From contig WPIO01000105.1 in assembly GCA_009760855.2 (NCBI GenBank), positions 966,501 through 1,030,500 of the forward strand: 64,000 nucleotides of DNA, given 5' to 3'. The notes under the pieces were generated by a model, which ran no database searches, was not told the DNA's origin, and saw nothing but the letters and a program-made list of their open reading frames with translations. Position 1 is the stretch's first letter. The number at the start of each line of letters is the position of its first letter. This document shows positions 28,419 to 55,930 of the stretch, in pieces. This stretch comes from Cristatella mucedo (Eukaryota; Bryozoa; Phylactolaemata; Cristatellidae). The translations under genes were made by a program, and so were the position numbers.

Positions 28419-28990
28419 TCCGGTGCGATGCCGGGAAAAATCAGTTGCCGCCTACGTGCGGCTGAGGCAGGCAATAGTGACGCAGCGCGGTGCTACCTGC
28501 TTTTCTGTAGCTTTCTGGAGCTTTTCTGTACACTGTAAGCGACGTTGGTGGAATACTGTGGAACTAGTATCGACGGACATTTCTCGCGTGCCCTCAGGAC
28601 CTAGACAGCCGAAGCCCAAGGCTGGCTATATAGCGGCGCCGTTCGTCAGTATCAGAAGATCAGTGATACTGATATGCTGAGAACACTGATTGAATGCCAT
28701 TCTCGGATGACAGCAGAACGCCAGCTCTAAAAAGACCTGTCTTTACTTGCACTTAAAAAGCCTACTGCAAACACATGTCCAGAAGGATTATCTCCGCCAG
28801 TTAATAAAGCCTCCTAGTAACTGAAAGAATACGCCGTACGCTTCTATGTGTTTATTTGTTTATGTATATAACGTTTAATAAAGATCACAGTTTACTTCAC
28901 GATGCGATTTCTTTCATTTAAATATCTCGCAATCCACGTTCAGCATAAGGGAACAACGTACACACTCACTGCCAACTGTCACCAAGTACG

Positions 28991-29000
28991 TTTAATATGA
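28991..29000 (+). promoter_or_regulatory. TATA-like box 31 bp upstream of U3 copy 1
   Basis: TTTAATATGA lies at -31 to -22 relative to the U3 start and is identical in all seven copies. Its position fits a snRNA-type core promoter; a proximal sequence element was not identified with confidence. The T run after U3 is TTTT in type A and TTTCC in type B units, so a pol III terminator is not conserved, which favours pol II. Confidence 0.4.
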
Positions 29001-29021
29001 GAACTTTACGATTTGTACTCT

Positions 29022-29237
29022 AAGATCATACTTTTAGGGATCATTTCTAAAGTATGCATCGCCAGGACTTCAGCTAAAACTGAGTCCAGATCGCAAACCA
29101 TGATGAGGATCGGAAGCGATCTCCTCTGAGCGCGAAGCGGGCAAGCGAGACCGCCGCAAGGTGGTCTTGCTAGCCATTGAGGACCGTTCCCGCTGGGACT
29201 TGTTCCCAGCAGGAGGGGGAGGTCGTAATCTGAGTGG
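29022..29237 (+). ncRNA. U3 small nucleolar RNA gene, copy 1
   Basis: The sequence follows vertebrate U3 from end to end. The 5' domain AAGATCATACTTTTAGGGAT then CATTTCT (human AAGACTATACTTTCAGGGAT then CATTTCT) pairs with the 5' external transcribed spacer and 18S rRNA. Box C' is in ACCATGATGAGG and box B in CTGAGCGCGAAGCGGG (human CTGAGCGTGAAGCCGG). Box C is in AGCCATTGAGGACCGTTC (human AGCCATTGATGATCGTTC) and box D in AATCTGAGTGG. A GC stem loop, CTGGGACTTGTTCCCAG, precedes box D. The length of about 216 nt equals the animal norm of about 217. U3 acts in the nucleolus in the small-subunit processome for early pre-rRNA cleavages. The exact 3' end is inferred from human U3. Confidence 0.94.
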
Positions 29238-30269
29238 TTTGCACTCTTTTCTAATAACTAAGATACCAACGCACATCGACATGTCTTAAACGAACGAGTC
29301 GTCGACTGTCGTCTCACGCGCCTCTGTCTGTCCGCGCTCGTGCCGATCCGCGTCCATCTGTGGTGCGTGCGCCCCGCAGCAGCCACGCCGTACGAGCCGC
29401 AGTTAGCAGCAGAGCGTGTGCAAGCCTGTGCACGCCGCTCACGCTAGCCGTCGACAGCTGCCCGCCCGCTGCGTGCGTCGACGTCGGCACCCCTATGCGA
29501 CGAGCGCCAGCTACAAGTCGCGCCTAGTCGCTCCTCGACTGCCGGCACAGCCGTCGACGTGCTGCCTTATTTACCTTTCCACAACTAGTAGCATCCTTCG
29601 TTGGCGCACGCGTTTCTAGATGCCCCTCGCGACGTCGGCTGCTTCCCAATCGCGACCATTTAGCATCGTTGTTGCGCGCCGTAAGCAAATCGATGTCGCA
29701 GCCCACACCCTTTTCTACCGGCATTGCCACTTTGCTGCGGTGAAACTTTGCTTTCGCCGGTAGCGGAAAAAACGGCGCAACACTTGACGCTGCGTCATCA
29801 TTCCGCAGACGCGTAAATACTTTTTCGGGTCGCCGCTGAACGTTTGCGTGATTATCGACTTGCCACTGTTAGTACAGGTAAGTCGAGTGCTGCGTACCAA
29901 ATTTGAAAGCTCAATTAAATGCTATTCATTTTATCGCCAGCATAACCATCCTTCATACTGCCAAAGTAAGTTACAGCGATGGATTCTGCGATCCTCCGGC
30001 TGCCATCCAGTCGTGACCGAACCGGATTCCGGCGGGTGCGGGGCTCGGTGGCCACGGCGCTGGCCCCGACGAGGCGGACCGTGCCGTCAGTCGATACCTA
30101 TCCGCGGACCTTCTTCGGCGGGTCGCTACGAACCTGTCTGCATCCTGCACCGGTCCTGTCACAAGTTCGGTTATCAATCTTGCCACGCGCAATTCAAAAG
30201 CAGCTCTGACTGGCACTACTAGTCTGCGTTGCTCGGCGTGCCTCAGCATGTTTTCCAAAGTCGACAGTT

Positions 30270-31500
30270 GGCTGTGACTAAGGTTCCATCAAATAACCGC
30301 TCGCTAAAGTTCAAGGAGTTATTTATCCGCATTCAGGCTGTCCAGGAGGTGCTGCCTGTATTTTCGCTGACCGAACGGACGCGGATGACGCCCTGCTCTC
30401 GTGAATGTGTACTTGAAGAGACCCTACTCGGGCTCTCATTCTGTTTGATCCACGCGGTTTAACAAGGCGGTTGCACGGACAGCTATTTTCCGTGGGAATC
30501 GTTTGTCTAGAGGAAATGCGGATTTCCGCATTGACCATCGTTTGAATCAGTCGCAGCCAGAATTTCGTCACAGGCCAAACGAAGTCAGCGTATGATGACG
30601 ATGTAGGCCATTTCAAAGACTTCCTTTGATTGTACGCTCGGCAGCTTAGCAAAGCCTCGGGCTCATGTTTCAGTCGAAAACTGACGTCCTGGTATGTCGG
30701 ATCGAAAGCAGATTTATAACACAGTGACGAATTCGCTTGCCATTTCCGAGAGCTCTCATTGCCCAGATACTAGCCGCTCAGCCGATACGTTTTCAGCCTT
30801 CATTGAAAAATACGTGCGCATTCGTGCCTCCATAAAACACCACCCTGCTACAAGGTATTGTTGAATCGACTCTTTGGACCGGCCTTCAAACAAGATTTTC
30901 TGAGCTTCCTTCGTTGGATAAGGCCGCCTTTTATTAGGAAGTCGCCTCGTGAAAAGAGCTATTCTCCCGAACAGACTATAAGAACCCTCCCTGCGGTCAC
31001 CGCTGGCCGGAAAACTTAACCGAGCCATAAGTGTGACTTTCAATGGCAAGCGGAAAAAAAAACCGTTTCGTAACACAGTCCTGTAAATCGGCAATCGTTA
31101 GAGCGATACTTAAATTGGCTGCGCAAGAGTCCAAGGTTGTGGAAAACTTCTGCATATTTTACCTCCTTCCATTTTCAAAAGAGATTTACGATGGAAAAAA
31201 ACCGCAGGGCACCGGCTTACAGTGCAGACTACAACGCACGAGTTATCATTCAATTTTTAGTCGGGGCTTCAGCGGCAGCACTCCACTTAAACTGGTCTGC
31301 TCAGTGTAACAAACGAAACAATATGAAGCATAAAACGCCGACGGGAATGTCACTGCCCTAGCACTGCTGCTACATCTATCAGCTGCCTTCGACACCTATA
31401 TGGATTCATTATTTATTGACCGCGATATCCTTCTTGAACGACTGAGAACAACGACCGGTGTGGCAGACGAGGCAACGGCATGGTCCGAATCGGACTTGTC
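30270..31500 (+). mobile_element. Degraded LINE segment within the array unit (shown for unit 1)
   Basis: The plus strand keeps the endonuclease start (NNRSLKFKELFIRIQAV, then LTERTRMTPC where intact LINEs have LTETW). It also keeps the pre-RT region (SADTFSAFIEKYVRIRASI, about 30772-30834) and reverse transcriptase motif A (LHLSAAFDT, then ILLERLRTTTGVADEATAW, about 31375-31485). Many stops interrupt it. It ends before the catalytic box, so the 3' half and tail are absent. Its closest relative in the window is the LINE at 54255-55930. The same segment lies at the matching offset in units 2 to 6. Confidence 0.75.
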
Positions 31501-31513
31501 CGATCGTGTCCGA

Positions 31514-34500
31514 TCCGGTGCCGATGCCGGGAAAAATCCGTCGCCGCCTACGTGCGGCTGAGGCGGGCAATAGTGACGCAGCGCGGTGCTACCTGCTTTT
31601 CTGTAGCTTTCTGGAGCTTTTCTGTACACTGTAAGCGACGTTGGTGGAATACTGTGGAACTAGTATCGACGGACATTTCTCGCGTGCCCTCAGGACCTAG
31701 ACAGCCGAAGCCCAAGGCTGGCTATATAGCGGCGCCGTTCGTCAGTATCAGAAGATCAGTGATACTGATATGCTGAGAACACTGATTGAATGCCATTCTC
31801 GGATGACAGCAGAACGCCAGCTCTAAAAAGACCTGTCTTTACTTGCACTTAAAAAGCCTACTGCAAACACATGTCCAGAAGGATTATCTCCGCCAGTTAA
31901 TAAAGCCTCCTAGTAACTGAAAGAATACGCCGTACGCTTCTATGTGTTTATTTGTTTATGTATATAACGTTTAATAAAGATCACAGTTTACTTCACGATG
32001 CGATTTCTTTCATTTAAATATCTCGCAATCCACGTTCAGCATAAGGGAACAACGTACACACTCACTGCCAACTGTCACCAAGTACGTTTAATATGAGAAC
32101 TTTACGATTTGTACTCTAAGATCATACTTTTTAGGGATCATTTCTAAAGTATGCATCGCCAGGACTTCAGCTAAAACTGAGTCCAGATCGCAAACCATGA
32201 TGAGGATCGGAAGCGATCTCCTCTGAGCGCGAAGCGGGCAAGCGAGACCGCCGCAAGGTGGTCTTGCTAGCCATTGAGGACCGTTCCCGCTGGGACTTGT
32301 TCCCAGCAGGAGGGTGAGGTCGTAATCTGAGTGGTTTGCACTCTTTCCTAATAACTACGATACCAACGCACATCGACATGTCTTAAACGAACGAGTCGTC
32401 GACTGTCGTCTCACGCGCCTCTGTCTGTCCGCGCTCGTGCCGATCCGCGTCCATCTGTGGTGCGTGCGCCCCGCAGCAGCCACGCCGTACGAGCCGCAGT
32501 TAGCAGCAGAGCGTGTGCAAGCCTGTGCACGCCGCTCACGCTAGCCGTCGACAGCTGCCCGCCCGCTGCGTGCGTCGACGTCGGCACCCCTATGCGACGA
32601 GCGCCAGCTACAAGTCGCGCCTAGTCGCTCCTCGACTGCCGGCACAGCCGTCGACGTGCTGCCTTATTTACCTTTCCACAACTAGTAGCATCCTTCGTTG
32701 GCGCACGCGTTTCTAGATGCCCCTCGCGACGTCGGCTGCTTCCCAATCGCGACCATTTAGCATCGTTGTTGCGCGCCGTAAGCAAATCGATGTCGCAGCC
32801 CACACCCTTTTCTACCGGCATTGCCACTTTGCTGCGGTGAAACTTTGCTTTCGCCGGTAGCGGAAAAAACGGCGCAACACTTGACGCTGCGTCATCATTC
32901 CGCAGACGCGTAAATACTTTTTCGGGTCGCCGCTGAACGTTTGCGTGATTATCGACTTGCCACTGTTAGTACAGGTAAGTCGAGTGCTGCGTACCAAATT
33001 TGAAAGCTCAATTAAATGCTATTCATTTTATCGCCAGCATAACCATCCTTCATACTGCCAAAGTAAGTTACAGCGATGGATTCTGCGATCCTCCGGCTGC
33101 CATCCAGTCGTGACCGAACCGGATTCCGGCGGGTGCGGGGCTCGGTGGCCACGGCGCTGGCCCCGACGAGGCGGACCGTGCCGTCAGTCGATACCTATCC
33201 GCGGACCTTCTTCGGCGGGTCGCTACGAACCTGTCTGCATCCTGCACCGGTCCTGTCACAAGTTCGGTTATCAATCTTGCCACGCGCAATTCAAAAGCAG
33301 CTCTGACTGGCACTACTAGTCTGCGTTGCTCGGCGTGCCTCAGCATGTTTTCCAAAGTCGACAGTTGGCTGTGACTAAGGTTCCATCAAATAACCGCTCG
33401 CTAAAGTTCAAGGAGTTATTTATCCGCATTCAGGCTGTCCAGGAGGTGCTGCCTGTATTTTCGCTGACCGAACGGACGCGGATGACGCCCTGCTCTCGTG
33501 AATGTGTACTTGAAGAGACCCTACTCGGGCTCTCATTCTGTTTGATCCACGCGGTTTAACAAGGCGGTTGCACGGACAGCTATTTTCCGTGGGAATCGTT
33601 TGTCTAGAGGAAATGCGGATTTCCGCATTGACCATCGTTTGAATCAGTCGCAGCCAGAATTTCGTCACAGGCCAAACGAAGTCAGCGTATGATGACGATG
33701 TAGGCCATTTCAAAGACTTCCTTTGATTGTACGCTCGGCAGCTTAGCAAAGCCTCGGGCTCATGTTTCAGTCGAAAACTGACGTCCTGGTATGTCGGATC
33801 GAAAGCAGATTTATAACACAGTGACGAATTCGCTTGCCATTTCCGAGAGCTCTCATTGCCCAGATACTAGCCGCTCAGCCGATACGTTTTCAGCCTTCAT
33901 TGAAAAATACGTGCGCATTCGTGCCTCCATAAAACACCACCCTGCTACAAGGTATTGTTGAATCGACTCTTTGGACCGGCCTTCAAACAAGATTTTCTGA
34001 GCTTCCTTCGTTGGATAAGGCCGCCTTTTATTAGGAAGTCGCCTCGTGAAAAGAGCTATTCTCCCGAACAGACTATAAGAACCCTCCCTGCGGTCACCGC
34101 TGGCCGGAAAACTTAACCGAGCCATAAGTGTGACTTTCAATGGCAAGCGGAAAAAACCGTTTCGTAACACAGTCCTGTAAATCGGCAATCGTTAGAGCGA
34201 ATGGAAAAACCGCAGGGCACCGGCTTACAGTGCAGACTACAACGCACGAGTTATCATTCAATTTTTAGTCGGGGCTTCAGCGGCAGCACTCCACTTAAAC
34301 TGGTCTGCTCAGTGTAACAAACGAAACAATATGAAGCATAAAACGCCGACGGGAATGTCACTGCCCTAGCACTGCTGCTACATCTATCAGCTGCCTTCGA
34401 CACCTATATGGATTCATTATTTATTGACCGCGATATCCTTCTTGAACGACTGAGAACAACGACCGGTGTGGCAGACGAGGCAACGGCATGGTCCGAATCG

Positions 34501-34521
34501 GACTTGTCCGATCGTGTCCGA
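31514..34521 (+). repeat. U3 array unit 2, with internal deletion
   Basis: The unit is 3008 bp, short by about 88 bp at 34200, where GTTAGAGCGA joins ATGGAAAAACCG directly. The missing segment begins GATACTT and ends TTTACG in other units. Its U3 gene differs from the other six at two places. The downstream variant is TTTCCTAATAACTACGA (type B). Confidence 0.95.
32118..32334 (+). ncRNA. U3 small nucleolar RNA gene, copy 2 (variant)
   Basis: The overall structure matches copy 1, but there are two differences. The 5' domain reads ATACTTTTTAGGG with one extra T, and the stem before box D reads GGAGGGTGAGG instead of GGAGGGGGAGG. The extra T falls inside the box A/A' pairing region, so function could be altered; it could also be an inactive copy. 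Confidence 0.9.
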
Positions 34522-37500
34522 TCCGGTGCCGATGCCGGGAAAAATCCGTCGCCGCCTACGTGCGGCTGAGGCGGGCAATAGTGACGCAGCGCGGTGCTAC
34601 CTGCTTTTCTGTAGCTTTCTGGAGCTTTTCTGTACACTGTAAGCGACGTTGGTGGAATACTGTGGAACTAGTATCGACGGACATTTCTCGCGTGCCCTCA
34701 GGACCTAGACAGCCGAAGCCCAAGGCTGGCTATATAGCGGCGCCGTTCGTCAGTATCAGAAGATCAGTGATACTGATATGCTGAGAACACTGATTGAATG
34801 CCATTCTCGGATGACAGCAGAACGCCAGCTCTAAAAAGACCTGTCTTTACTTGCACTTAAAAAGCCTACTGCAAACACATGTCCAGAAGGATTATCTCCG
34901 CCAGTTAATAAAGCCTCCTAGTAACTGAAAGAATACGCCGTACGCTTCTATGTGTTTATTTGTTTATGTATATAACGTTTAATAAAGATCACAGTTTACT
35001 TCACGATGCGATTTCTTTCATTTAATATCTCGCAATCCACGTTCAGCATAAGGGAACAACGTACACACTCACTGCCAACTGTCACCAAGTACGTTTAATA
35101 TGAGAACTTTACGATTTGTACTCTAAGATCATACTTTTAGGGATCATTTCTAAAGTATGCATCGCCAGGACTTCAGCTAAAACTGAGTCCAGATCGCAAA
35201 CCATGATGAGGATCGGAAGCGATCTCCTCTGAGCGCGAAGCGGGCAAGCGAGACCGCCGCAAGGTGGTCTTGCTAGCCATTGAGGACCGTTCCCGCTGGG
35301 ACTTGTTCCCAGCAGGAGGGGGAGGTCGTAATCTGAGTGGTTTGCACTCTTTCCTAATAACTACGATACCAACGCACATCGACATGTCTTAAACGAACGA
35401 GTCGTCGACTGTCGTCTCACGCGCCTCTGTCTGTCCGCGCTCGTGCCGATCCGCGTCCATCTGTGGTGCGTGCGCCCCGCAGCAGCCACGCCGTACGAGC
35501 CGCAGTTAGCAGCAGAGCGTGTGTGCAAGCCTGTGCACGCCGCTCACGCTAGCCGTCGACAGCTGCCCGCCCGCTGCGTGCGTCGACGTCGGCACCCCTA
35601 TGCGACGAGCGCCAGCTACAAGTCGCGCCTAGTCGCTCCTCGACTGCCGGCACAGCCGTCGACGTGCTGCCTTATTTACCTTTCCACAACTAGTAGCATC
35701 CTTCGTTGGCGCACGCGTTTCTAGATGCCCCTCGCGACGTCGGCTGCTTCCCAATCGCGACCATTTAGCATCGTTGTTGCGCGCCGTAAGCAAATCGATG
35801 TCGCAGCCCACACCCTTTTCTACCGGCATTGCCACTTTGCTGCGGTGAAACTTTGCTTTCGCCGGTAGCGGAAAAAAAAACGGCGCAACACTTGACGCTG
35901 CGTCATCATTCCGCAGACGCGTAAATACTTTTTCGGGTCGCCGCTGAACGTTTGCGTGATTATCGACTTGCCACTGTTAGTACAGGTAAGTCGAGTGCTG
36001 CGTACCAAATTTGAAAGCTCAATTAAATGCTATTCATTTTATCGCCAGCATAACCATCCTTCATACTGCCAAAGTAAGTTACAGCGATGGATTCTGCGAT
36101 CCTCCGGCTGCCATCCAGTCGTGACCGAACCGGATTCCGGCGGGTGCGGGGCTCGGTGGCCACGGCGCTGGCCCCGACGAGGCGGACCGTGCCGTCAGTC
36201 GATACCTATCCGCGGACCTTCTTCGGCGGGTCGCTACGAACCTGTCTGCATCCTGCACCGGTCCTGTCACAAGTTCGGTTATCAATCTTGCCACGCGCAA
36301 TTCAAAAGCAGCTCTGACTGGCACTACTAGTCTGCGTTGCTCGGCGTGCCTCAGCATGTTTTCCAAAGTCGACAGTTGGCTGTGACTAAGGTTCCATCAA
36401 ATAACCGCTCGCTAAAGTTCAAGGAGTTATTTATCCGCATTCAGGCTGTCCAGGAGGTGCTGCCTGTATTTTCGCTGACCGAACGGACGCGGATGACGCC
36501 CTGCTCTCGTGAATGTGTACTTGAAGAGACCCTACTCGGGCTCTCATTCTGTTTGATCCACGCGGTTTAACAAGGCGGTTGCACGGACAGCTATTTTCCG
36601 TGGGAATCGTTTGTCTAGAGGAAATGCGGATTTCCGCATTGACCATCGTTTGAATCAGTCGCAGCCAGAATTTCGTCACAGGCCAAACGAAGTCAGCGTA
36701 TGATGACGATGTAGGCCATTTCAAAGACTTCCTTTGATTGTACGCTCGGCAGCTTAGCAAAGCCTCGGGCTCATGTTTCAGTCGAAAACTGACGTCCTGG
36801 TATGTCGGATCGAAAGCAGATTTATAACACAGTGACGAATTCGCTTGCCATTTCCGAGAGCTCTCATTGCCCAGATACTAGCCGCTCAGCCGATACGTTT
36901 TCAGCCTTCATTGAAAAATACGTGCGCATTCGTGCCTCCATAAAACACCACCCTGCTACAAGGTATTGTTGAATCGACTCTTTGGACCGGCCTTCAAACA
37001 AGATTTTCTGAGCTTCCTTCGTTGGATAAGGCCGCCTTTTATTAGGAAGTCGCCTCGTGAAAAGAGCTATTCTCCCGAACAGACTATAAGAACCCTCCCT
37101 GCGGTCACCGCTGGCCGGAAAACTTAACCGAGCCATAAGTGTGACTTTCAATGGCAAGCGGAAAAAACCGTTTCGTAACACAGTCCTGTAAATCGGCAAT
37201 CGTTAGAGCGATACTTTAAATTGGCTGCGCAAGAGTCCAAGGTTGTGGAAAACTTCTGCATATTTTACCTCCTTCCATTTTCAAAAGAGATTTACGATGG
37301 AAAAACCGCAGGGCACCGGCTTACAGTGCAGACTACAACGCACGAGTTATCATTCAATTTTTAGTCGGGGCTTCAGCGGCAGCACTCCACTTAAACTGGT
37401 CTGCTCAGTGTAACAAACGAAACAATATGAAGCATAAAACGCCGACGGGAATGTCACTGCCCTAGCACTGCTGCTACATCTATCAGCTGCCTTCGACACC

Positions 37501-37617
37501 TATATGGATTCATTATTTATTGACCGCGATATCCTTCTTGAACGACTGAGAACAACGACCGGTGTGGCAGACGAGGCAACGGCATGGTCCGAATCGGACT
37601 TGTCCGATCGTGTCCGA
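34522..37617 (+). repeat. U3 array unit 3
   Basis: Full unit of 3096 bp, type B downstream of U3. It has a GTGTGTGC dinucleotide expansion at about 35521 and a run of nine A near 35872. Confidence 0.95.
35125..35340 (+). ncRNA. U3 small nucleolar RNA gene, copy 3
   Basis: No difference from copy 1 was seen over the 216 bp. The upstream TATA-like box is also unchanged. Confidence 0.93.
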
Positions 37618-40600
37618 TCCGGTGCCGATGCCGGGAAAAATCCGTCGCCGCCTACGTGCGGCTGAGGCGGGCAATAGTGACGCAGCGCGGTGCTACCTGC
37701 TTTTCTGTAGCTTTCTGGAGCTTTTCTGTACACTGTAAGCGACGTTGGTGGAATACTGTGGAACTAGTATCGACGGACATTTCTCGCGTGCCCTCAGGAC
37801 CTAGACAGCCGAAGCCCAAGGCTGGCTATATAGCGGCGCCGTTCGTCAGTATCAGAAGATCAGTGATACTGATATGCTGAGAACACTGATTGAATGCCAT
37901 TCTCGGATGACAGCAGAACGCCAGCTCTAAAAAGACCTGTCTTTACTTGCACTTAAAAAGCCTACTGCAAACACATGTCCAGAAGGATTATCTCCGCCAG
38001 TTAATAAAGCCTCCTAGTAACTGAAAGAATACGCCGTACGCTTCTATGTGTTTATTTGTTTATGTATATAACGTTTAATAAAGATCACAGTTTACTTCAC
38101 GATGCGATTTCTTTCATTTAAATATCTCGCAATCCACGTTCAGCATAAGGGAACAACGTACACACTCACTGCCAACTGTCACCAAGTACGTTTAATATGA
38201 GAACTTTACGATTTGTACTCTAAGATCATACTTTTAGGGATCATTTCTAAAGTATGCATCGCCAGGACTTCAGCTAAAACTGAGTCCAGATCGCAAACCA
38301 TGATGAGGATCGGAAGCGATCTCCTCTGAGCGCGAAGCGGGCAAGCGAGACCGCCGCAAGGTGGTCTTGCTAGCCATTGAGGACCGTTCCCGCTGGGACT
38401 TGTTCCCAGCAGGAGGGGGAGGTCGTAATCTGAGTGGTTTGCACTCTTTTCTAATAACTAAGATACCAACGCACATCGACATGTCTTAAACGAACGAGTC
38501 GTCGACTGTCGTCTCACGCGCCTCTGTCTGTCCGCGCTCGTGCCGATCCGCGTCCATCTGTGGTGCGTGCGCCCCGCAGCAGCCACGCCGTACGAGCCGC
38601 AGTTAGCAGCAGAGCGTGTGCAAGCCTGTGCACGCCGCTCACGCTAGCCGTCGACAGCTGCCCGCCCGCTGCGTGCGTCGACGTCGGCACCCCTATGCGA
38701 CGAGCGCCAGCTACAAGTCGCGCCTAGTCGCTCCTCGACTGCCGGCACAGCCGTCGACGTGCTGCCTTATTTACCTTTCCACAACTAGTAGCATCCTTCG
38801 TTGGCGCACGCGTTTCTAGATGCCCCTCGCGACGTCGGCTGCTTCCCAATCGCGACCATTTAGCATCGTTGTTGCGCGCCGTAAGCAAATCGATGTCGCA
38901 GCCCACACCCTTTTCTACCGGCATTGCCACTTTGCTGCGGTGAAACTTTGCTTTCGCCGGTAGCGGAAAAAACGGCGCAACACTTGACGCTGCGTCATCA
39001 TTCCGCAGACGCGTAAATACTTTTTCGGGTCGCCGCTGAACGTTTGCGTGATTATCGACTTGCCACTGTTAGTACAGGTAAGTCGAGTGCTGCGTACCAA
39101 ATTTGAAAGCTCAATTAAATGCTATTCATTTTATCGCCAGCATAACCATCCTTCATACTGCCAAAGTAAGTTACAGCGATGGATTCTGCGATCCTCCGGC
39201 TGCCATCCAGTCGTGACCGAACCGGATTCCGGCGGGTGCGGGGCTCGGTGGCCACGGCGCTGGCCCCGACGAGGCGGACCGTGCCGTCAGTCGATACCTA
39301 TCCGCGGACCTTCTTCGGCGGGTCGCTACGAACCTGTCTGCATCCTGCACCGGTCCTGTCACAAGTTCGGTTATCAATCTTGCCACGCGCAATTCAAAAG
39401 CAGCTCTGACTGGCACTACTAGTCTGCGTTGCTCGGCGTGCCTCAGCATGTTTTCCAAAGTCGACAGTTGGCTGTGACTAAGGTTCCATCAAATAACCGC
39501 TCGCTAAAGTTAGGAGGAGTTATTTATCCGCATTCAGGCTGTCCAGGAGGTGCTGCCTGTATTTTCGCTGACCGAACGGACGCGGATGACGCCCTGCTCT
39601 CGTGAATGTGTACTTGAAGAGACCCTACTCGGGCTCTCATTCTGTTTGATCCACGCGGTTTAACAAGGCGGTTGCACGGACAGCTATTTTCCGTGGGAAT
39701 CGTTTGTCTAGAGGAAATGCGGATTTCCGCATTGACCATCGTTTGAATCAGTCGCAGCCAGAATTTCGTCACAGGCCAAACGAAGTCAGCGTATGATGAC
39801 GATGTAGGCCATTTCAAAGACTTCCTTTGATTGTACGCTCGGCAGCTTAGCAAAGCCTCGGGCTCATGTTTCAGTCGAAAACTGACGTCCTGGTATGTCG
39901 GATCGAAAGCAGATTTATAACACAGTGACGAATTCGCTTGCCATTTCCGAGAGCTCTCATTGCCCAGATACTAGCCGCTCAGCCGATACGTTTTCAGCCT
40001 TCATTGAAAAATACGTGCGCATTCGTGCCTCCATAAAACACCACCCTGCTACAAGGTATTGTTGAATCGACTCTTTGGACCGGCCTTCAAACAAGATTTT
40101 CTGAGCTTCCTTCGTTGGATATGGCCGGCTTTTATTAGGAAGTCGCCTCGTGAAAAGAGCTATTCTCCCGAACAGACTATAAGAACCCTCCCTGCGGTCA
40201 CCGCTGGCCGGAAAACTTAACCGAGCCATAAGTGTGACTTTCAATGGCAAGCGGAAAAAACCGTTTCGCAACACAGTCCTGTAAAACGGCAATCGTTAGA
40301 GCGATACTTTAATTGGCTGCGCAAGAGTCCAAGGTCGTGGAAAACTTCTGCATATTTTACCTCCTTCCATTTTCAAAAGAGATTTACGATGGAAAAACCG
40401 CAGGGCACCGGCTTACAGTGCAGACTACAACGCACGAGTTATCATTCAATTTTTAGTCGGGGCTTCAGCGGCAGCACTCCACTTAAACTGGTCTGCTCAG
40501 TGTAACAAACGAAACAATATGAAGCATAAAACGCCGACGGGAATGTCACTGCCCTAGCACTGCTGCTACATCTATCAGCTGCCTTCGACACCTATATGGA

Positions 40601-40709
40601 TTCATTATTTATTGACCGCGATATCCTTCTTGAACGACTGAGAACAACGACCGGTGTGGCAGACGAGGCAACGGCATGGTCCGAATCGGACTTGTCCGAT
40701 CGTGTCCGA
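37618..40709 (+). repeat. U3 array unit 4
   Basis: Full unit of 3092 bp, type A downstream of U3. Private changes include AAAGTTAGGAGGAG at about 39508 and GGATATGGCCGGC at about 40118. Confidence 0.95.
38222..38437 (+). ncRNA. U3 small nucleolar RNA gene, copy 4
   Basis: No difference from copy 1 was seen over the 216 bp. Confidence 0.93.
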
Positions 40710-43700
40710 TCCGGTGCCGATGCCGGGAAAAATCCGTCGCCGCCTACGTGCGGCTGAGGCGGGCAATAGTGACGCAGCGCGGTGCTACCTGCTTTTCTGT
40801 AGCTTTCTGGAGCTTTTCTGTACACTGTAAGCGACGTTGGTGGAATACTGTGGAACTAGTATCGACGGACATTTCTCGCGTGCCCTCAGGACCTAGACAG
40901 CCGAAGCCCAAGGCTGGCTATATAGCGGCGCCGTTCGTCAGTATCAGAAGATCAGTGATACTGATATGCTGAGAACACTGATTGAATGCCATTCTCGGAT
41001 GACAGCAGAACGCCAGCTCTAAAAAGACCTGTCTTTACTTGCACTTAAAAAGCCTACTGCAAACACATGTCCAGAAGGATTATCTCCGCCAGTTAATAAA
41101 GCCTCCTAGTAACTGAAAGAATACGCCGTACGCTTCTATGTGTTTATTTGTTTATGTATATAACGTTTAATAAAGATCACAGTTTACTTCACGATGCGAT
41201 TTCTTTCATTTAAATATCTCGCAATCCACGTTCAGCATAAGGGAACAACGTACACACTCACTGCCAACTGTCACCAAGTACGTTTAATATGAGAACTTTA
41301 CGATTTGTACTCTAAGATCATACTTTTAGGGATCATTTCTAAAGTATGCATCGCCAGGACTTCAGCTAAAACTGAGTCCAGATCGCAAACCATGATGAGG
41401 ATCGGAAGCGATCTCCTCTGAGCGCGAAGCGGGCAAGCGAGACCGCCGCAAGGTGGTCTTGCTAGCCATTGAGGACCGTTCCCGCTGGGACTTGTTCCCA
41501 GCAGGAGGGGGAGGTCGTAATCTGAGTGGTTTGCACTCTTTCCTAATAACTACGATACCAACGCACATCGACATGTCTTAAACGAACGAGTCGTCGACTG
41601 TCGTCTCACGCGCCTCTGTCTGTCCGCGCTCGTGCCGATCCGCGTCCATCTGTGGTGCGTGCGCCCCGCAGCAGCCACGCCGTACGAGCCGCAGTTAGCA
41701 GCAGAGCGTGTGCAAGCCTGTGCACGCCGCTCACGCTAGCCGTCGACAGCTGCCCGCCCGCTGCGTGCGTCGACGTCGGCACCCCTATGCGACGAGCGCC
41801 AGCTACAAGTCGCGCCTAGTCGCTCCTCGACTGCCGGCACAGCCGTCGACGTGCTGCCTTATTTACCTTTCCACAACTAGTAGCATCCTTCGTTGGCGCA
41901 CGCGTTTCTAGATGCCCCTCGCGACGTCGGCTGCTTCCCAATCGCGACCATTTAGCATCGTTGTTGCGCGCCGTAAGCAAATCGATGTCGCAGCCCACAC
42001 CCTTTTCTACCGGCATTGCCACTTTGCTGCGGTGAAACTTTGCTTTCGCCGGTAGCGAAAAAACGGCGCAACACTTGACGCTGCGTCATCATTCCGCAGA
42101 CGCGTAAATACTTTTTCGGGTCGCCGCTGAACGTTTGCGTGATTATCGACTTGCCACTGTTAGTACAGGTAAGTCGAGTGCTGCGTACCAAATTTGAAAG
42201 CTCAATTAAATGCTATTCATTTTATCGCCAGCATAACCATCCTTCATACTGCCAAAGTAAGTTACAGCGATGGATTCTGCGATCCTCCGGCTGCCATCCA
42301 GTCGTGACCGAACCGGATTCCGGCGGGTGCGGGGCTCGGTGGCCACGGCGCTGGCCCCGACGAGGCGGACCGTGCCGTCAGTCGATACCTATCCGCGGAC
42401 CTTCTTCGGCGGGTCGCTACGAACCTGTCTGCATCCTGCACCGGTCCTGTCACAAGTTCGGTTATCAATCTTGCCACGCGCAATTCAAAAGCAGCTCTGA
42501 CTGCACTACTAGTCTGCGTTGCTCGGCGTGCCTCAGCATGTTTTCCAAAGTCGACAGTTGGCTGTGACTAAGGTTCCATCAAATAACCGCTCGCTAAAGT
42601 TCAAGGAGTTATTTATCCGCATTCAGGCTGTCCAGGAGGTGCTGCCTGTATTTTCGCTGACCGAACGGACGCGGATGACGCCCTGCTCTCGTGAATGTGT
42701 ACTTGAAGAGACCCTACTCGGGCTCTCATTCTGTTTGATCCACGCGGTTTAACAAGGCGGTTGCACGGACAGCTATTTTCCGTGGGAATCGTTTGTCTAG
42801 AGGAAATGCGGATTTCCGCATTGACCATCGTTTGAATCAGTCGCAGCCAGAATTTCGTCACAGGCCAAACGAAGTCAGCGTATGATGACGATGTAGGCCA
42901 TTTCAAAGACTTCCTTTGATTGTACGCTCGGCAGCTTAGCAAAGCCTCGGGCTCATGTTTCAGTCGAAAACTGACGTCCTGGTATGTCGGATCGAAAGCA
43001 GATTTATAACACAGTGACGAATTCGCTTGCCATTTCCGAGAGCTCTCATTGCCCAGATACTAGCCGCTCAGCCGATACGTTTTCAGCCTTCATTGAAAAA
43101 TACGTGCGCATTCGTGCCTCCATAAAACACCACCCTGCTACAAGGTATTGTTGAATCGACTCTTTGGACCGGCCTTCAAACAAGATTTTCTGAGCTTCCT
43201 TCGTTGGATAAGGCCGCCTTTTATTAGGAAGTCGCCTCGTGAAAAGAGCTATTCTCCCGAACAGACTATAAGAACCCTCCCTGCGGTCAACGCTGGCCGG
43301 AAAACTTAACCGAGCCATAACTGTGACTTTCAATGCCAAGCGGAATAAACCGTTTCGTAACACAGTCCTGTAAATCGGCAATCGTTAGAGCGATACTTTA
43401 ATTGGCTGCGCAAGAGTCCAAGGTCGTGGAAAACTTCTGCATATTTTACCTCCTTCCATTTTCAAAAGAGATTTACGATGGAAAAACCGCAGGGCACCGG
43501 CTTACAGTGCAGACTACAACGCACGAGTTATCATTCAATTTTTAGTCGGGGCTTCAGCGGCAGCACTCCACTTAAACTGGTCTGCTCAGTGTAACAAACG
43601 AAACAATATGAAGCATAAAACGCCGACGGGAATGTCACTGCCCTAGCACTGCTGCTACATCTATCAGCTGCCTTCGACACCTATATGGATTCATTATTTA

Positions 43701-43798
43701 TTGACCGCGATATCCTTCTTGAACGACTGAGAACAACGACCGGTGTGGCAGACGAGGCAACGGCATGGTCCGAATCGGACTTGTCCGATCGTGTCCGA
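40710..43798 (+). repeat. U3 array unit 5
   Basis: Full unit of 3089 bp, type B downstream of U3. A cluster of private base changes lies near 43288-43346 (CGGTCAACGC, ATAACTGTGA, GGAATAAACC). Confidence 0.95.
41314..41529 (+). ncRNA. U3 small nucleolar RNA gene, copy 5
   Basis: No difference from copy 1 was seen over the 216 bp; the 3' flank is of type B. Confidence 0.93.
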
Positions 43799-46700
43799 TC
43801 CGGTGCCGATGCCGGGAAAAATCCGTCGCCGCCTACGTGCGGCTGAGGCGGGCAATAGTGACGCAGCGCGGTGCTACCTGCTTTTCTGTAGCTTTCTGGA
43901 GCTTTTCTGTACACTGTAAGCGACGTTGGTGGAATACTGTGGAACTAGTATCGACGGACATTTCTCGCGTGCCCTCAGGACCTAGACAGCCGAAGCCCAA
44001 GGCTGGCTATATAGCGGCGCCGTTCGTCAGTATCAGAAGATCAGTGATACTGATATGCTGAGAACACTGATTGAATGCCATTCTCGGATGACAGCAGAAC
44101 GCCAGCTCTAAAAAGACCTGTCTTTACTTGCACTTAAAAAGCCTACTGCAAACACATGTCCAGAAGGATTATCTCCGCCAGTTAATAAAGCCTCCTAGTA
44201 ACTGAAAGAATACGCCGTACGCTTCTATGTGTTTATTTGTTTATGTATATAACGTTTAATAAAGATCACAGTTTACTTCACGATGCGATTTCTTTCATTT
44301 AAATATCTCGCAATCCACGTTCAGCATAAGGGAACAACGTACACACTCACTGCCAACTGTCACCAAGTACGTTTAATATGAGAACTTTACGATTTGTACT
44401 CTAAGATCATACTTTTAGGGATCATTTCTAAAGTATGCATCGCCAGGACTTCAGCTAAAACTGAGTCCAGATCGCAAACCATGATGAGGATCGGAAGCGA
44501 TCTCCTCTGAGCGCGAAGCGGGCAAGCGAGACCGCCGCAAGGTGGTCTTGCTAGCCATTGAGGACCGTTCCCGCTGGGACTTGTTCCCAGCAGGAGGGGG
44601 AGGTCGTAATCTGAGTGGTTTGCACTCTTTTCTAATAACTAAGATACCAACGCACATCGACATGTCTTAAACGAACGAGTCGTCGACTGTCGTCTCACGC
44701 GCCTCTGTCTGTCCGCGCTCGTGCCGATCCGCGTCCATCTGTGGTGCGTGCGCCCCGCAGCAGCCACGCCGTACGAGCCGCAGTTAGCAGCAGAGCGTGT
44801 GCAAGCCTGTGCACGCCGCTCACGCTAGCCGTCGACAGCTGCCCGCCCGCTGCGTGCGTCGACGTCGGCACCCCTATGCGACGAGCGCCAGCTACAAGTC
44901 GCGCCTAGTCGCTCCTCGACTGCCGGCACAGCCGTCGACGTGCTGCCTTATTTACCTTTCCACAACTAGTAGCATCCTTCGTTGGCGCACGCGTTTCTAT
45001 GCCCCCCTCGCGACGTCGGCTGCTTCCCAATCGCGACCATTTAGCATCGTTGTTGCGCGCCGTAAGCAAATCGATGTCGCAGCCCACACCCTTTTCTACC
45101 GGCATTGCCACTTTGCTGCGGTGAAACTTTGCTTTCGCCGGAAAAAAAAAAAAAAAACGGCGCAACACTTGACGCTGCGTCATCATTCCGCAGACGCGTA
45201 AATACTTTTTCGGGTCGCCGCTGAACGTTTGCGTGATTATCGACTTGCCACTGTTAGTACAGGTAAGTCGAGTGCTGCGTACCAAATTTGAAAGCTCAAT
45301 TAAATGCTATTCATTTTATCGCCAGCATAACCATCCTTCATACTGCCAAAGTAAGTTACAGCGATGGATTCTGCGATCCTCCGGCTGCCATCCAGTCGTG
45401 ACCGAACCGGATTCCGGCGGGTGCGGGGCTCGGTGGCCACGGCGCTGGCCCCGACGAGGCGGACCGTGCCGTCAGTCGATACCTATCCGCGGACCTTCTT
45501 CGGCGGGTCGCTACGAACCTGTCTGCATCCTGCACCGGTCCTGTCACAAGTTCGGTTATCAATCTTGCCACGCGCAATTCAAAAGCAGCTCTGACTGGCA
45601 CTACTAGTCTGCGTTGCTCGGCGTGCCTCAGCATGTTTTCCAAAGTCGACAGTTGGCTGTGACTAAGGTTCCATCAAATAACCGCTCGCTAAAGTTCAAG
45701 GAGTTATTTATCCGCATTCAGGCTGTCCAGGAGGTGCTGCCTGTATTTTCGCTGACCGAACGGACGCGGATGACGCCCTGCTCTCGTGAATGTGTACTTG
45801 AAGAGACCCTACTCGGGCTCTCATTCTGTTTGATCCACGCGGTTTAACAAGGCGGTTGCACGGACAGCTATTTTCCGTGGGAATCGTTTGTCTAGAGGAA
45901 ATGCGGATTTCCGCATTGACCATCGTTTGAATCAGTCGCAGCCAGAATTTCGTCACAGGCCAAACGAAGTCAGCGTATGATGACGATGTAGGCCATTTCA
46001 AAGACTTCCTTTGATTGTACGCTCGGCAGCTTAGCAAAGCCTCGGGCTCATGTTTCAGTCGAAAACTGACGTCCTGGTATGTCGGATCGAAAGCAGATTT
46101 ATAACACAGTGACGAATTCGCTTGCCATTTCCGAGAGCTCTCATTGCCCAGATACTAGCCGCTCAGCCGATACGTTTTCAGCCTTCATTGAAAAATACGT
46201 GCGCATTCGTGCCTCCATAAAACACCACCCTGCTACAAGGTATTGTTGAATCGACTCTTTGGACCGGCCTTCAAACAAGATTTTCTGAGCTTCCTTCGTT
46301 GGATAAGGCCGCCTTTTATTAGGAAGTCGCCTCGTGAAAAGAGCTATTCTCCCGAACAGACTATAAGAACCCTCCCTGCGGTCACCGCTGGCCGGAAAAC
46401 TTAACCGAGCCATAAGTGTGACTTTCAATGGCAAGCGGAAAAAACCGTTTCGTAACACAGTCCTGTAAATCGGCAATCGTTAGAGCGATACTTAAATTGG
46501 CTGCGCAAGAGTCCAAGGTTGTGGAAAACTTCTGCATATTTTACCTCCTTCCATTTTCAAAAGAGATTTACGATGGAAAAACCGCAGGGCACCGGCTTAC
46601 AGTGCAGACTACAACGCACGAGTTATCATTCAATTTTTAGTCGGGGCTTCAGCGGCAGCACTCCACTTAAACTGGTCTGCTCAGTGTAACAAACGAAACA

Positions 46701-46893
46701 ATATGAAGCATAAAACGCCGACGGGAATGTCACTGCCCTAGCACTGCTGCTACATCTATCAGCTGCCTTCGACACCTATATGGATTCATTATTTATTGAC
46801 CGCGATATCCTTCTTGAACGACTGAGAACAACGACCGGTGTGGCAGACGAGGCAACGGCATGGTCCGAATCGGACTTGTCCGATCGTGTCCGA
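43799..46893 (+). repeat. U3 array unit 6
   Basis: Full unit of 3095 bp, type A downstream of U3. At about 45141 the A run is 16 long and the adjacent TAGC seen in other units is missing. Near 44998 TCTAGATGCCCC is replaced by TCTATGCCCCCC. Confidence 0.95.
44403..44618 (+). ncRNA. U3 small nucleolar RNA gene, copy 6
   Basis: No difference from copy 1 was seen over the 216 bp; the 3' flank is of type A. Confidence 0.93.
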
Positions 46894-47976
46894 TCCGGTG
46901 CCGATGCCGGGAAAAATCCGTCGCCGCCTACGTGCGGCTGAGGCGGGCAATAGTGACGCAGCGCGGTGCTACCTGCTTTTCTGTAGCTTTCTGGAGCTTT
47001 TCTGTACACTGTAAGCGACGTTGGTGGAATACTGTGGAACTAGTATCGACGGACATTTCTCGCGTGCCCTCAGGACCTAGACAGCCGAAGCCCAAGGCTG
47101 GCTATATAGCGGCGCCGTTCGTCAGTATCAGAAGATCAGTGATACTGATATGCTGAGAACACTGATTGAATGCCATTCTCGGATGACAGCAGAACGCCAG
47201 CTCTAAAAAGACCTGTCTTTACTTGCACTTAAAAAGCCTACTGCAAACACATGTCCAGAAGGATTATCTCCGCCAGTTAATAAAGCCTCCTAGTAACTGA
47301 AAGAATACGCCGTACGCTTCTATGTGTTTATTTGTTTATGTATATAACGTTTAATAAAGATCACAGTTTACTTCACGATGCGATTTCTTTCATTTAAATA
47401 TCTCGCAATCCACGTTCAGCATAAGGGAACAACGTACACACTCACTGCCAACTGTCACCAAGTACGTTTAATATGAGAACTTTACGATTTGTACTCTAAG
47501 ATCATACTTTTAGGGATCATTTCTAAAGTATGCATCGCCAGGACTTCAGCTAAAACTGAGTCCAGATCGCAAACCATGATGAGGATCGGAAGCGATCTCC
47601 TCTGAGCGCGAAGCGGGCAAGCGAGACCGCCGCAAGGTGGTCTTGCTAGCCATTGAGGACCGTTCCCGCTGGGACTTGTTCCCAGCAGGAGGGGGAGGTC
47701 GTAATCTGAGTGGTTTGCACTCTTTTCTAATAACTAAGATACCAACGCACATCGACATGTCTTAAACGAACGAGTCGTCGACTGTCGTCTCACGCGCCTC
47801 TGTCTGTCCGCGCTCGTGCCGATCCGCGTCCGTCTGTGGTGCGTGCGCCCCGCAGCAGCCACGCCGTACGAGCCGCAGTTAGCAGCAGAGCGTGTGCAAG
47901 CCTGTGCACGCCGCTCACGCTAGCCGTCGACAGCTGCCCGCCCGCTGCGTGCGTCGACGTCGGCACCCCTATGCGA
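46894..47976 (+). repeat. U3 array unit 7, partial
   Basis: The first 1083 bp of a unit, including the whole U3 gene (type A downstream), then an abrupt change after CACCCCTATGCGA. The LINE-derived second half is absent. Confidence 0.95.
47498..47713 (+). ncRNA. U3 small nucleolar RNA gene, copy 7
   Basis: This complete gene lies in the partial last unit. No difference from copy 1 was seen; the 3' flank is of type A. Confidence 0.93.
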
Positions 47977-49869
47977 TGTCATGAAAGGCACCTCGGCCAT
48001 AGATGGTCTCGCATAATGTGTTTCTAGCAGTTACAATTTGGGAACCACGAATATTGAATGTCAGTTATGTTCTCGCAGCTTCAGCTTGCGCCGGACCGTT
48101 TGAAAGTGCGCCGGGCTTCCAACAGACACCAACTCCTCAAGTGGACACAATGCGAAAGATGGAGCGGCGGCAGCGAGCCGTAATGCAAGCAAAGCTGGAG
48201 AGAGGCGAAATCTCTGGTGGGTTTTGAGTGATTCCTCAACAGCGCTTCGTCACTGACGTACACGTGCGTCACGTCCGAAGACCAACCGACAATGCATCTG
48301 CCCCGACTGCGAGAGACGCGGACCGGTCTAACGCCCTAGCGAACGCAGTTTTCGCATTTCTCAGCTGACACTCTCTTATGCAGAGCTTTTTGGACTCGTT
48401 TAGGTTGATCCAGACACCAAGTCCTACGCTGCAAACAATTGCAAAGTATGCGACAAGCGACGAACGCCGATCGTCTTGAACGTCTTGCCATTCCTCGGAG
48501 GGCTGATCGCGAAGCCCACGCACCGCTCAGTTGCGTTGCGTTGTTGCGTTTTTTTGGCCGCTGTGTAGCGTAGTTGCGATCGCGAGCGTCAGCCCAAGGA
48601 CCTAATTTGTTTGCTTCGCCGAGCACTGCGCTCGTAGCGGCTACTAATCCTCGCAGATGAGCGGGCAATGCTGATGTGGCTGGCGCTGCCTCAAAGCACC
48701 AATCAAGACTCTCGAGAAAGCACCAATCGCGGGTCGGGCAGATAGCGCCAACGCGGGCGCAGGTATGGTGATTTGAGGAGCGCGCTACGGCTCTCGTTAC
48801 TGTCCGCACTCCCGCGAGCAATCGTTCGTTCTTCTATCATAAACCACCGATATTGTTATTATAAGTCCACTTTTTTCTGTCTATGTATGACTCAGTGTGA
48901 GCAACTACCAAAAGCACTGGACTACTGCGCGGTGTTTTTGTTTGCAGACAAATCCATGCTGAAACATTGGCGTGCTACATCAAACATCTTGGGACTGCCG
49001 AGAGGTAATTCGCAAGTCATGAATTATGAAGATTGGGAGCTGGTTATGTCATAACATATGGTTAAGATAGATATAAAGCCCGGGTGATGTCATAATGTGT
49101 CAGCTGTGCTCTAGGCTCGTGCCGGCCATTTGAGTTATGCTAAGGGCTTTCGCGGTGACATTCGATATGGCGGATGCTGGACACGTGTAACCCTGTGCGG
49201 CTGCTGAATGGCCCATTCTGCGTGCAGTGGGCATATGTGGGTACGCTCTCTATTGCTGCTGTGCTCAACTACCGTCAGAATAGCTGCACGTAATGAGGCC
49301 TCAGCCTCTACGACTCAGCTAGCCGTATTTAAGGGCTGAGGTCTAACCGCGATTTGTCACCTGGCATCAACGACAGCGCTGCACCGCTGCATCTGTGCCG
49401 AGAGGACTCGAGAATGCAGAATCCTCTCCAGAGGGCGACTGTAACGCCGCCTACATGAATAGCAAGCTTAGCGGACCTGAGGGCTCGGCCTACCTACAGC
49501 ACGCCAGTATAAATCTCACGAGACTTAAGTGGCCGTTTCGCGCGCTCTCGTTTAAAGATGGCCGCCGGAGCGTGAGGCGCCCGGGCTCGGTGGTCCTGTG
49601 GCGCTGCGGAGCTCAGTTCCAAAGCGTTCGCACGCGTCGTCCGACCGCGGCTCGCTGTCTCGCAATATCCTTCGCCGCCAGCTGTACGCTGCTCGCTCGG
49701 ACGTGGCTCCTCGCGACGTAGCGTCTCGTGGCGTTGCGCCGAGTGCTTCTCGTACGTTCTTTGTCGCCCGATGAAGAACGACCAATTTCGCAGCGACAGC
49801 CGCGAACGCACGCTTGAAGTGCACCGCAGAGGTTGCTCCAGCTTCACGCAGGACATAATCCTGAGTCCT
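47977..49869. other. Unassigned sequence right of the array
   Basis: No named repeat was seen. A plus-strand stretch at 48122-48216 has a good acceptor (GGCTTCCAACAG|ACACC) and encodes VDTMRKMERRQRAVMQAKLE, then RGEIS before a GT. It could be a host exon with a coiled helix. GC-rich frames at 49395-49856 have no recognised domain. Confidence 0.4.
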
Positions 49870-50078
49870 GAGCCGTTAGTTCTATGCTACTCACTACCTC
49901 AACTGCTCTCCTGACTCTGCTATGCTTCCCACTCTCTCTTTGTTACGTGAGACGAAGTCTGTTGGCTACCGAACGCGTACCGAAAGCCGCTTAGGCTGTG
50001 AGTGCGCTATACAAAACTCTCCTGCGTAACACCCACGTGGTCTTTATGACTTTGTGGAGTCACAGACGGAGAGATGGA
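49870..50078 (+). mobile_element. CR1-like LINE 3' end, family 3, plus copy of an inverted pair
   Basis: The plus strand from TTCTATGCTACTCACTACCT to GGAGTCACAGACGGAGAG is the reverse complement of 50175-50372 with a few mismatches. It contains the end of ORF2 and the 3' UTR of a LINE family different from the L2-like one. It is joined tail to tail with the following element. Confidence 0.85.
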
Positions 50079-50162
50079 ATCTGCTTCATTAGCGCCGTAA
50101 ACATTCGCGATTGTGCCACGTTCCGCATCCGCCCGTCTGCAGCTTAGCGCAGTCGCGAGGAT

Positions 50163-50870
50163 GTAATGTAATGGATCTCCGTCTGTGACTCCACAAAGTC
50201 ATAAAGACCACGTGGGTGTTAAGCAGGAGAGTTTTGTATAGCCCACTCACAGCCTAAGCGGCTTTCGGTACGCATTCGGTAGCCAACAGACTTCGTCTCA
50301 CGCAACAAAGAGGAATTGGGAAGCATAGAAGAGTCAGGAGAGCAGTTGAGGTAGTGAGCAGCATGGAAGTAGCAGCTCAGGACCGCTGAAAAAGATGTGC
50401 CATAGTCGGCAGTTGGAGAGTAGATGTCGTTGCGTAAGAATCGTGGAAGCGAGTTCCACAGCCTAGGACCTGCAGTGCTAAAGCTTCTGTCGCCAACGGT
50501 GTTTAAGCAGAATAATGGAACAGCTAATTTATTGTCCATACAGGACCTGATGGCCAAAACCAGAGACCAGGCTGAAACCGATGCAGCAATTCAGCTAGGT
50601 ATGGAGGAAGGAGCCGTGAAGGCCGTGGCCTTCGCCTTGTGGATCAGCGTAAGAACTTTTCTCTGTACCCGTTGGTCAACCGGCAGCCATCTTAGAATAC
50701 GTAGCCGAAGCCCGACAAGCACTCGTCAAGAAGGCTGCAAACGCTTCAATCGATCGCCGGCACCACGTCAGCACCGGCGCAGCGTAGGGCTGCGGCGGTG
50801 CTTCCGCTTAAGCCCCGAGGAGCCAGAGGAGCACGTCGCCCATCTCAATTGGTTGACTTGAACGAGGTCG
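50163..50870 (-). mobile_element. CR1-like LINE 3' end, family 3, minus copy of an inverted pair
   Basis: The minus strand encodes LRWLPVDQRVQRKVLTLIHK, NTVGDRSFSTAGPRLWNSLP and FLRNDIYSPT, a LINE C-terminus. The 3' end is CGGAGATCCATTACATTACA, with no TTATTA tail. Frame breaks are present near 50560-50700. A related copy lies at 53283. Confidence 0.85.
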
Positions 50871-54254: not shown

Positions 54255-55930
54255 TAGACTTAATACTAATAATTATAATACATTGGGTATAGCGCCCTCA
54301 GAGAAATTACTTCACCAACTGCATGGCGATGTGGCTTTTTTGGTAGCTCAGCCAAAAGGGATTTAATATACTCTAGCCAAGACAGAACCAATAACCTAGT
54401 TAAACTTTTAGCGACCCACCGAAGACAGCCCCTAACCTTTGATAGGGATCGGACATGATGACTAACTGTAGAAGCAGTCTCCATAACGAAGCTTTCTAAC
54501 TTTAGGCAGCTGTAGAAAACGACATCTAAATTCCGAGCACATTGTGACAGTCGCACACAACAGCATCATAAATTAGAAGAGCAAAGTCTATCAGTTCAGC
54601 CACACACCTGGGGTGTCCTATGAGTAGCAGTTTAGTTTTATCGTCGTTTAGTTTAAGGAGATTTGCTAACAACCAGGATCAAATGCCTGCAATGTAAGCA
54701 TTCAGTTTTTCAGTCGCTGCAGCAGATTCCGACGATTTAAACAATAAATATAGCGGAGTATCTTCAGCGTAAGATTGATAGCCGATTCTATAGGCTCGAA
54801 TCACTTTTTCCGGAAGTTGAGTACAAATGGAGCACAGCAACTGGCCGAGAACGGACCCTTGTGGGACTCCACAGGTCACTGGTCTGGTGGATGAGACCTG
54901 ACCCCCATACGACACAGATTGAACATGGCCGGACAAATATGATTTGAACCACGCCAGTGCCAGACCGGTTGTTTTTCTCAATCGTTCAAGTAGAACATCG
55001 TGATCAACGGTGTCAAATGCAGCTGATAAATCTAGCAGCGCCAGGGCACGTGATATTCCCGTCATCGTGGCTGCATACAATGTCATTGGTTGCATGGAGA
55101 AGAGAAGTTTCAGCGAAGTGATGTCACTTGAATCCGGACTGAAATTTCTGAAAATTCCTACGTTTCAGCGTGTGCTACCAGCTGCTTAGCGACAATTTGT
55201 TCAAGAATCTTTGACTCTAAAGGAAGAATGGATACTTGGTGATAGTTTGCTAGGAAATCTTAATCTAATCCAAGATTGTGAAGTACCGGTCTTATTATGG
55301 CCGATTTGAAAGACTTGGGCACAACCCCATTTTGCAGAGAAGCATTAGAAATCCCAGTTATGACTGGACCAAGTTTGTCTGTCAGTGAATAGCAGAGGTT
55401 ATGGTATAGGGTCTTCAGGAGACGAGGTATTTTCACTGGACTTTATTAAGGTAGCCAAATTGCATGCAGAAACCTCGAACAATCTTTTAATGAAGTGATT
55501 CGTCAAAAAACCTTTTACAGGTTGTGACTCAACACTTGCTTTATTCGGAGAAGGCATTCTGGAAGCACGAATGTGCACAATGGTTTCACTCAAGAAGGCT
55601 AAAAACCTAACGGCCGAGCCATTAATATCTGGAGAAATCGAGTCTTCTCAGAATTGGCTAGAAAATTGTTTCCCGTCTCAGACATCTGTCTTGGGTCTGA
55701 CTGGCAGGACTCCAGTTTACGAGTGAAAAAAGAAGCTCTGGCTTTTCCAAGCTTCCGGGTGCAAGCTCTAAGGAAATCTTTGAAATTGGCTAGATCGTCA
55801 TCAGACCCAGACTTCTTTAAAGCGGCATTTAAGCCTGCGCTAAACACTTTTGAAGATTACCATAACTTGATACTAGCCAAGGTTCTGAATTGAGTTTGCT
55901 GGTCTTATAAAGCACGACGCATGGCCTCGC
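54255..55930 (-). mobile_element. CR1/L2-like LINE, family 2, pre-RT region to 3' end
   Basis: The minus strand encodes DDDLANFKDFLRACTRKLGK, ASFFTRKLE, LIKSSENTSSPEDPIP and LLDLSAAFDTVDHDVLLERL. It continues with VTCGVPQGSVLGQLLCSICT and SYAEDTPLYLLF. The catalytic box reads YAED, so the first Asp of YADD is changed to Glu; frames are also broken. The 3' end near 54255 shows ATAGCGCCCTCAGAGAAATT and a short TAATAATTATAATA tail. It is the closest relative of the LINE piece in the U3 units. Confidence 0.87.

Follow-up and report, generated by a model that had tools for sequence, protein, structure and literature searches.

What kind of locus is a row of U3 small nucleolar RNA genes in the bryozoan Cristatella mucedo, how did it arise, and what keeps its copies alike? 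The window analysed here is a stretch of 64,000 nucleotides, positions 966501-1030500 of the 1.45-Mb contig C6. A sequence-only reading had proposed that it carries seven complete U3 genes in near-identical units, arranged head to tail from 28419 to 47976. A Rfam covariance search found the U3 family (RF00012) above its cut-off of 34 bits at seven sites in the window, all on the forward strand and each covering model positions 1-219. Genes 1 and 3 to 7 (29022..29238, 35125..35341, 38222..38438, 41314..41530, 44403..44619 and 47498..47714) score 143.6 bits each, and gene 2 (32118..32335) scores 136.8 bits. The Rfam score had been offered as a test of the U3 assignment, and a range of 136.8-143.6 bits against 34 leaves that assignment standing. 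The genes are 217 nt long, one more than the roughly 216 nt first estimated. Six of the seven are identical; gene 2, at 218 nt, has an inserted base near position 10, differs by a substitution at 197, and is possibly weaker or non-functional.

The genes start 3096, 3007, 3097, 3092, 3089 and 3095 bases apart, which gives head-to-tail units of about 3.09 kb. The short interval is the one after gene 2, whose downstream spacer lacks about 85 bases. BLAST with one unit as query confines the repeat within the window to 28419..47976 (+), exactly the coordinates first proposed, and together with the unit alignment it resolves the array into seven cores and six spacers. The core of about 1.08 kb comprises unit bases 2494-3097 followed by 1-481, and the spacer is about 2 kb. 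The array thus runs for about 6.3 periods, from unit base 2494 in the first copy to unit base 481 in the last, where the repeat ends 262 bases downstream of gene 7. Between units, pairwise identity is 99.45-99.91% in the unit alignment, gaps excluded. ARAGORN found no tRNA gene in the window, and when 34500-41700 was searched with Rfam at permissive settings, U3 alone exceeded any cut-off. Two other candidates for unit genes in that interval, Transposase-2 RNA and SNORA44, scored far under their cut-offs and were rejected. Open frames of 130-162 amino acids in the units overlap on both strands.

Such uniformity raises the question of whether the array is real. An assembler could have repeated one or two real units, and there is a precedent in Schistosoma mansoni, where six identical U3 loci were judged by the authors to be one gene. 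In the present array every unit differs from the rest by substitutions or indels of its own, among them the loss of about 85 bases from one unit, and single-copy sequence flanks the array on both sides, within a 1.45-Mb contig. Since the units differ privately, the window has zero N and both array edges pass into non-array sequence, a simple assembly duplication is unlikely, and we consider an artefact of this kind highly improbable. The opposite error would be a collapse, in which the true locus is far longer and macrosatellite-like. Near-identical units often collapse, and 5S copies lie at a contig end in the same assembly; the U3 array, however, is bounded on both sides within its contig, and all 12 U3 candidates in the assembly were scored with no array-type U3 elsewhere. 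A much longer locus is therefore an unlikely reading. Seven copies are also few for the macrosatellite-like or rDNA-like system that had been suggested.

The 12 candidates come from a search of the whole assembly (572 Mb, 688 contigs). With the U3 gene as query, a DNA search gave 12 candidates, all of them scored, and the family search, which scored 57 of 2951 candidates, gave 12 matches at the identical 12 places; more distant copies could have escaped both. Seven are the array genes. Two form a pair in opposite orientations on contig C20 (857554-865064; 148.5 and 145.6 bits), one is an intact gene on C111 (145.1 bits), and two are diverged copies on C110 and C44 (94.8 and 51.3 bits). The C20 pair lies in an inverted repeat with 2.46-kb arms that are 99.35% identical in an alignment of 2467 columns.

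The C20 locus bears on the origin of the array. Compared by BLAST with 45 kb of C20, the window segment 23747..29265 (+) matches C20 868500-863322 in reverse, about 5.5 kb in five pieces at 73-79% identity, and the match ends just past U3 gene 1. The left flank is thus common to both places, which indicates one ancestral locus that gave rise to the direct array in the window and to the inverted pair on C20. The homology takes in kilobases of upstream flank, and amplification of U3 itself as a mobile element was rejected on this ground. Array and C20 are merely 73-79% identical, and homogenisation is therefore local to each locus.

The junction between units suggests how the array may have begun. 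The spacer contains a LINE-like fragment, at 36197..37621 (+) in unit 3 (unit bases 1073-2497), which has dispersed matches at 65-82% identity. The fragment is cut inside its reverse-transcriptase frame at the unit junction, and related copies continue beyond the break; the translation of one copy, inspected by eye, is the basis of the reverse-transcriptase assignment. At the junction, the inside of the fragment abuts the start of the upstream core, and TCCG is shared there. We take this junction, from its sequence, as the probable scar of the first tandem duplication, in which a single U3 locus would have been joined to its copy at a microhomology of 4-5 bases. The right edge appears to have been altered later, because the last unit stops at unit base 481, out of phase. 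A palindrome of about 520 bases at window 49865-50383, 83% self-complementary, has relatives on C111 and C20 and is probably a mobile element. Reverse transcriptase fragments lie on the reverse strand at 963-1748 and 54679-55164 (Pfam RVT_1, two of the six frames tested).

What has kept the units uniform since then can be addressed from the differences among them. The unit alignment holds 25 substitution sites, five of them informative. All four combinations of variants occur at six of the ten pairs of informative sites, and at four of six when site 750, in a run of A, is left out. Sites 229/240 form one block and sites 2094/2120 another, and this speaks against misalignment as the source of the pattern; the private differences are clustered where indels may be misaligned. 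Variants are shuffled among the units, on few sites, at which repeated mutation could also yield four combinations. The homogenisation first proposed for the array is accordingly backed by evidence of exchange, and unequal crossing-over or gene conversion could be the process that keeps the units uniform. Recent amplification may nevertheless explain more of the near identity than ongoing exchange does. A rival view makes the array a recent burst of a mostly redundant or silent locus, with units that are alike because they are young and with C20 or C111 supplying the RNA. Low divergence between units would follow from a burst without any long-term history, and C20 U3 has a better promoter match and scores slightly higher in Rfam (148.5 and 145.6 bits, the array genes 143.6). 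Against it, the four-combination sites point to exchange after the mutations arose, and six of the seven genes share one intact sequence of 217 bases. We regard a silent, recently expanded locus as quite unlikely, and an array of working genes kept alike by exchange as the better account.

A 14-base promoter matrix was trained on four U5 promoters, eight U5 loci having been found, and the first 100 bases upstream of each gene were scanned. The top match lies at -62 in C20 U3 (12.3 bits, per-position p 1.1e-5) and at -62 in C111 U3 (8.3 bits, p 3.4e-4). In the array the top match, at -63, is weak (6.4 bits, p 1.8e-3), and the second best, at -39, has 6.0 bits. The -63 match marks a candidate proximal promoter element at 35062..35075 (+) for gene 3 and at the same place in the other units. 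The diverged C110 and C44 copies have no match near -62, the U5 type L050 is without the motif, and the U1 array has just 3.2 bits at -65. The upstream element is consistent with a snRNA-type promoter, no proof of one, and each unit may carry its own. A Gibbs motif from ten promoters (width 16) reached a score of 110.3, whereas six shuffles gave 90.6-95.4. It was set aside and is not used as proof, because the set contains duplicates (L053 is the same as L054, and the array is paralogous to C20) and fewer restarts were run for the shuffles.

The array, C20 and C111 genes keep all the boxes of U3 and share the same first 35 bases. The box names follow the U3 literature. The conserved 5' domain and the boxes C', B, C and D that had been noted are thus present, with the qualification that box C is a variant, UUGAGGACCG versus UUGAUGAUCG in the Rfam consensus (window 35280-35289 for gene 3). 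This variant is common to the six U3 types aligned, from the array, C20, C111, C110 and C44 loci. In box B, position 112 is C in the array and C111 and U in C20. The likeness to vertebrate U3 holds for the RNA family and does not extend to the host. COX1 on the 21-kb mitochondrial contig C688 reads under table 5, which fits AGA/AGG and ATA, and both this gene and this code rule out a vertebrate. Among the best 120 of 8000 scored COX1 relatives, one protein stands at 96%, followed by molluscs, nemerteans, an annelid and stoneflies at 81-85%, and the host is read as probably a lophotrochozoan. The same contig has a non-coding stretch repeated several times and a block F-nad5-H-nad4-nad4L-T-S-cob-nad6-P-nad1, its genes named by eye, with an order that presumably resembles that of chitons.

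Over 217 bases, the array and C20b genes differ at 28 positions, the array and C111 genes at 25, and C20b and C111 at 41. Positions 89-92, 117-155 and 170-190 distinguish the three types. When four sequences, two of them nearly identical, are placed on the Rfam structure, 91.8% of the 244 cells are paired. In 11 of the 244 both partners have changed, and the covariation score is 0.167; none of 500 shuffles equals either value. Of the five measures, two are less distinctive: 40 of the 500 shuffles have at least the seven pairs with a change on both sides that are seen here, and 430 have at least as many further pair types. The paired changes between paralogues lie in the 3' stems. Between array and C20b, substitutions show no concentration in stems, with 15 at 122 paired and 13 at 95 unpaired positions. 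Three intact U3 lineages, each homogenised within its own locus alone, could represent distinct isoforms that are used differently, for example a bulk form from the array alongside stage-specific forms, coupled with a change in box C throughout the lineage. Going by sequence, we hold this as a tentative and rather doubtful idea.

U3 is not the only small RNA to be arrayed in this genome. A search for U1 (42 of 6948 candidates scored) gave 24 matches, among them eight genes head to tail on C652 (L039-L046; 107125-123261), 2274-2292 bases apart in 2.28-kb units. These units are 98.66-100% identical, with 0-4 mismatches per unit and differences that are mostly indels, and there is no similarity between the U1 and U3 array units. 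More U1 matches are found elsewhere on C652. The 5S search (47 of 18747 candidates scored) gave 13 matches; three of these, with equal scores, follow one another every 3.7 kb close to the beginning of C332 (3657-11193) and are perhaps the edge of a larger array. For U5 (46 of 31119 candidates scored), the eight matches are single or paired, with no array among them. Two opposed U5 genes about 0.5 kb apart on C398 (1008588-1009298) have identical 100-base upstream sequences. Since the same genome arrays U1 and probably 5S, no cause specific to U3 is needed, and the locus is best read as a tandem sn(o)RNA array of the ordinary kind, made up of U3 genes.

Tandem 5S and 45S rDNA units are locally homogenised, as here; the U3 array has far fewer copies and differs from them in polymerase and scale. 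Human U3 genes at 17p11.2 are reportedly clustered, in what the title of a 1997 report by Gao, Frey and Matera calls a complex inverted repeat. That cluster is like the present one in placing several U3 genes together; as an inverted repeat it resembles the C20 pair, whereas the present array is purely head to tail. Because human U3 genes are said to be clustered and king crab U3 is reported as massively proliferated, the claim that such a locus is unusual for animals was overstated. Published accounts describe the king crab proliferation (PMC8086120), at least 14 U3 copies in Euglena, where tandem U3 genes were sought by PCR and not found (PMC2784804), and 147 fungal genomes, most with three U3 copies or fewer and two with 10 and 11 (PMC5832005). 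King crabs, Euglena and the two fungi are like C. mucedo in having many U3 copies per genome. Human RNU1 and RNU2 are termed tandemly repeated gene arrays (PMC4802181). Like the present array, they have head-to-tail units, each with a complete Pol II-type small RNA gene and its promoter (a candidate one in C. mucedo U3), and are homogenised within the locus; the U1 array on C652 belongs to this kind as well. They differ in that the gene here is U3, a nucleolar RNA, and in that there are seven units only. Our literature search, which took in few subscription papers, did not find a direct tandem U3 array in an animal among the papers listed.

In summary, we think it likely that the locus is a tandem array of ordinary U3 genes, each unit with a putative promoter of its own, that grew from a single locus and is kept uniform by exchange. 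The multiple copies would help to provide U3 for early pre-rRNA cleavage, which implies a putative dosage benefit, and the C20 and C111 genes would contribute minor U3 forms. The style of the array is what would be expected from U1, U2 and 5S loci. The finding is a small natural example of how a single ancestral small-RNA locus gave rise to a direct array and an inverted pair, homogenised within and not between loci. With three intact U3 types in one genome, the use of U3 isoforms becomes testable in this bryozoan.
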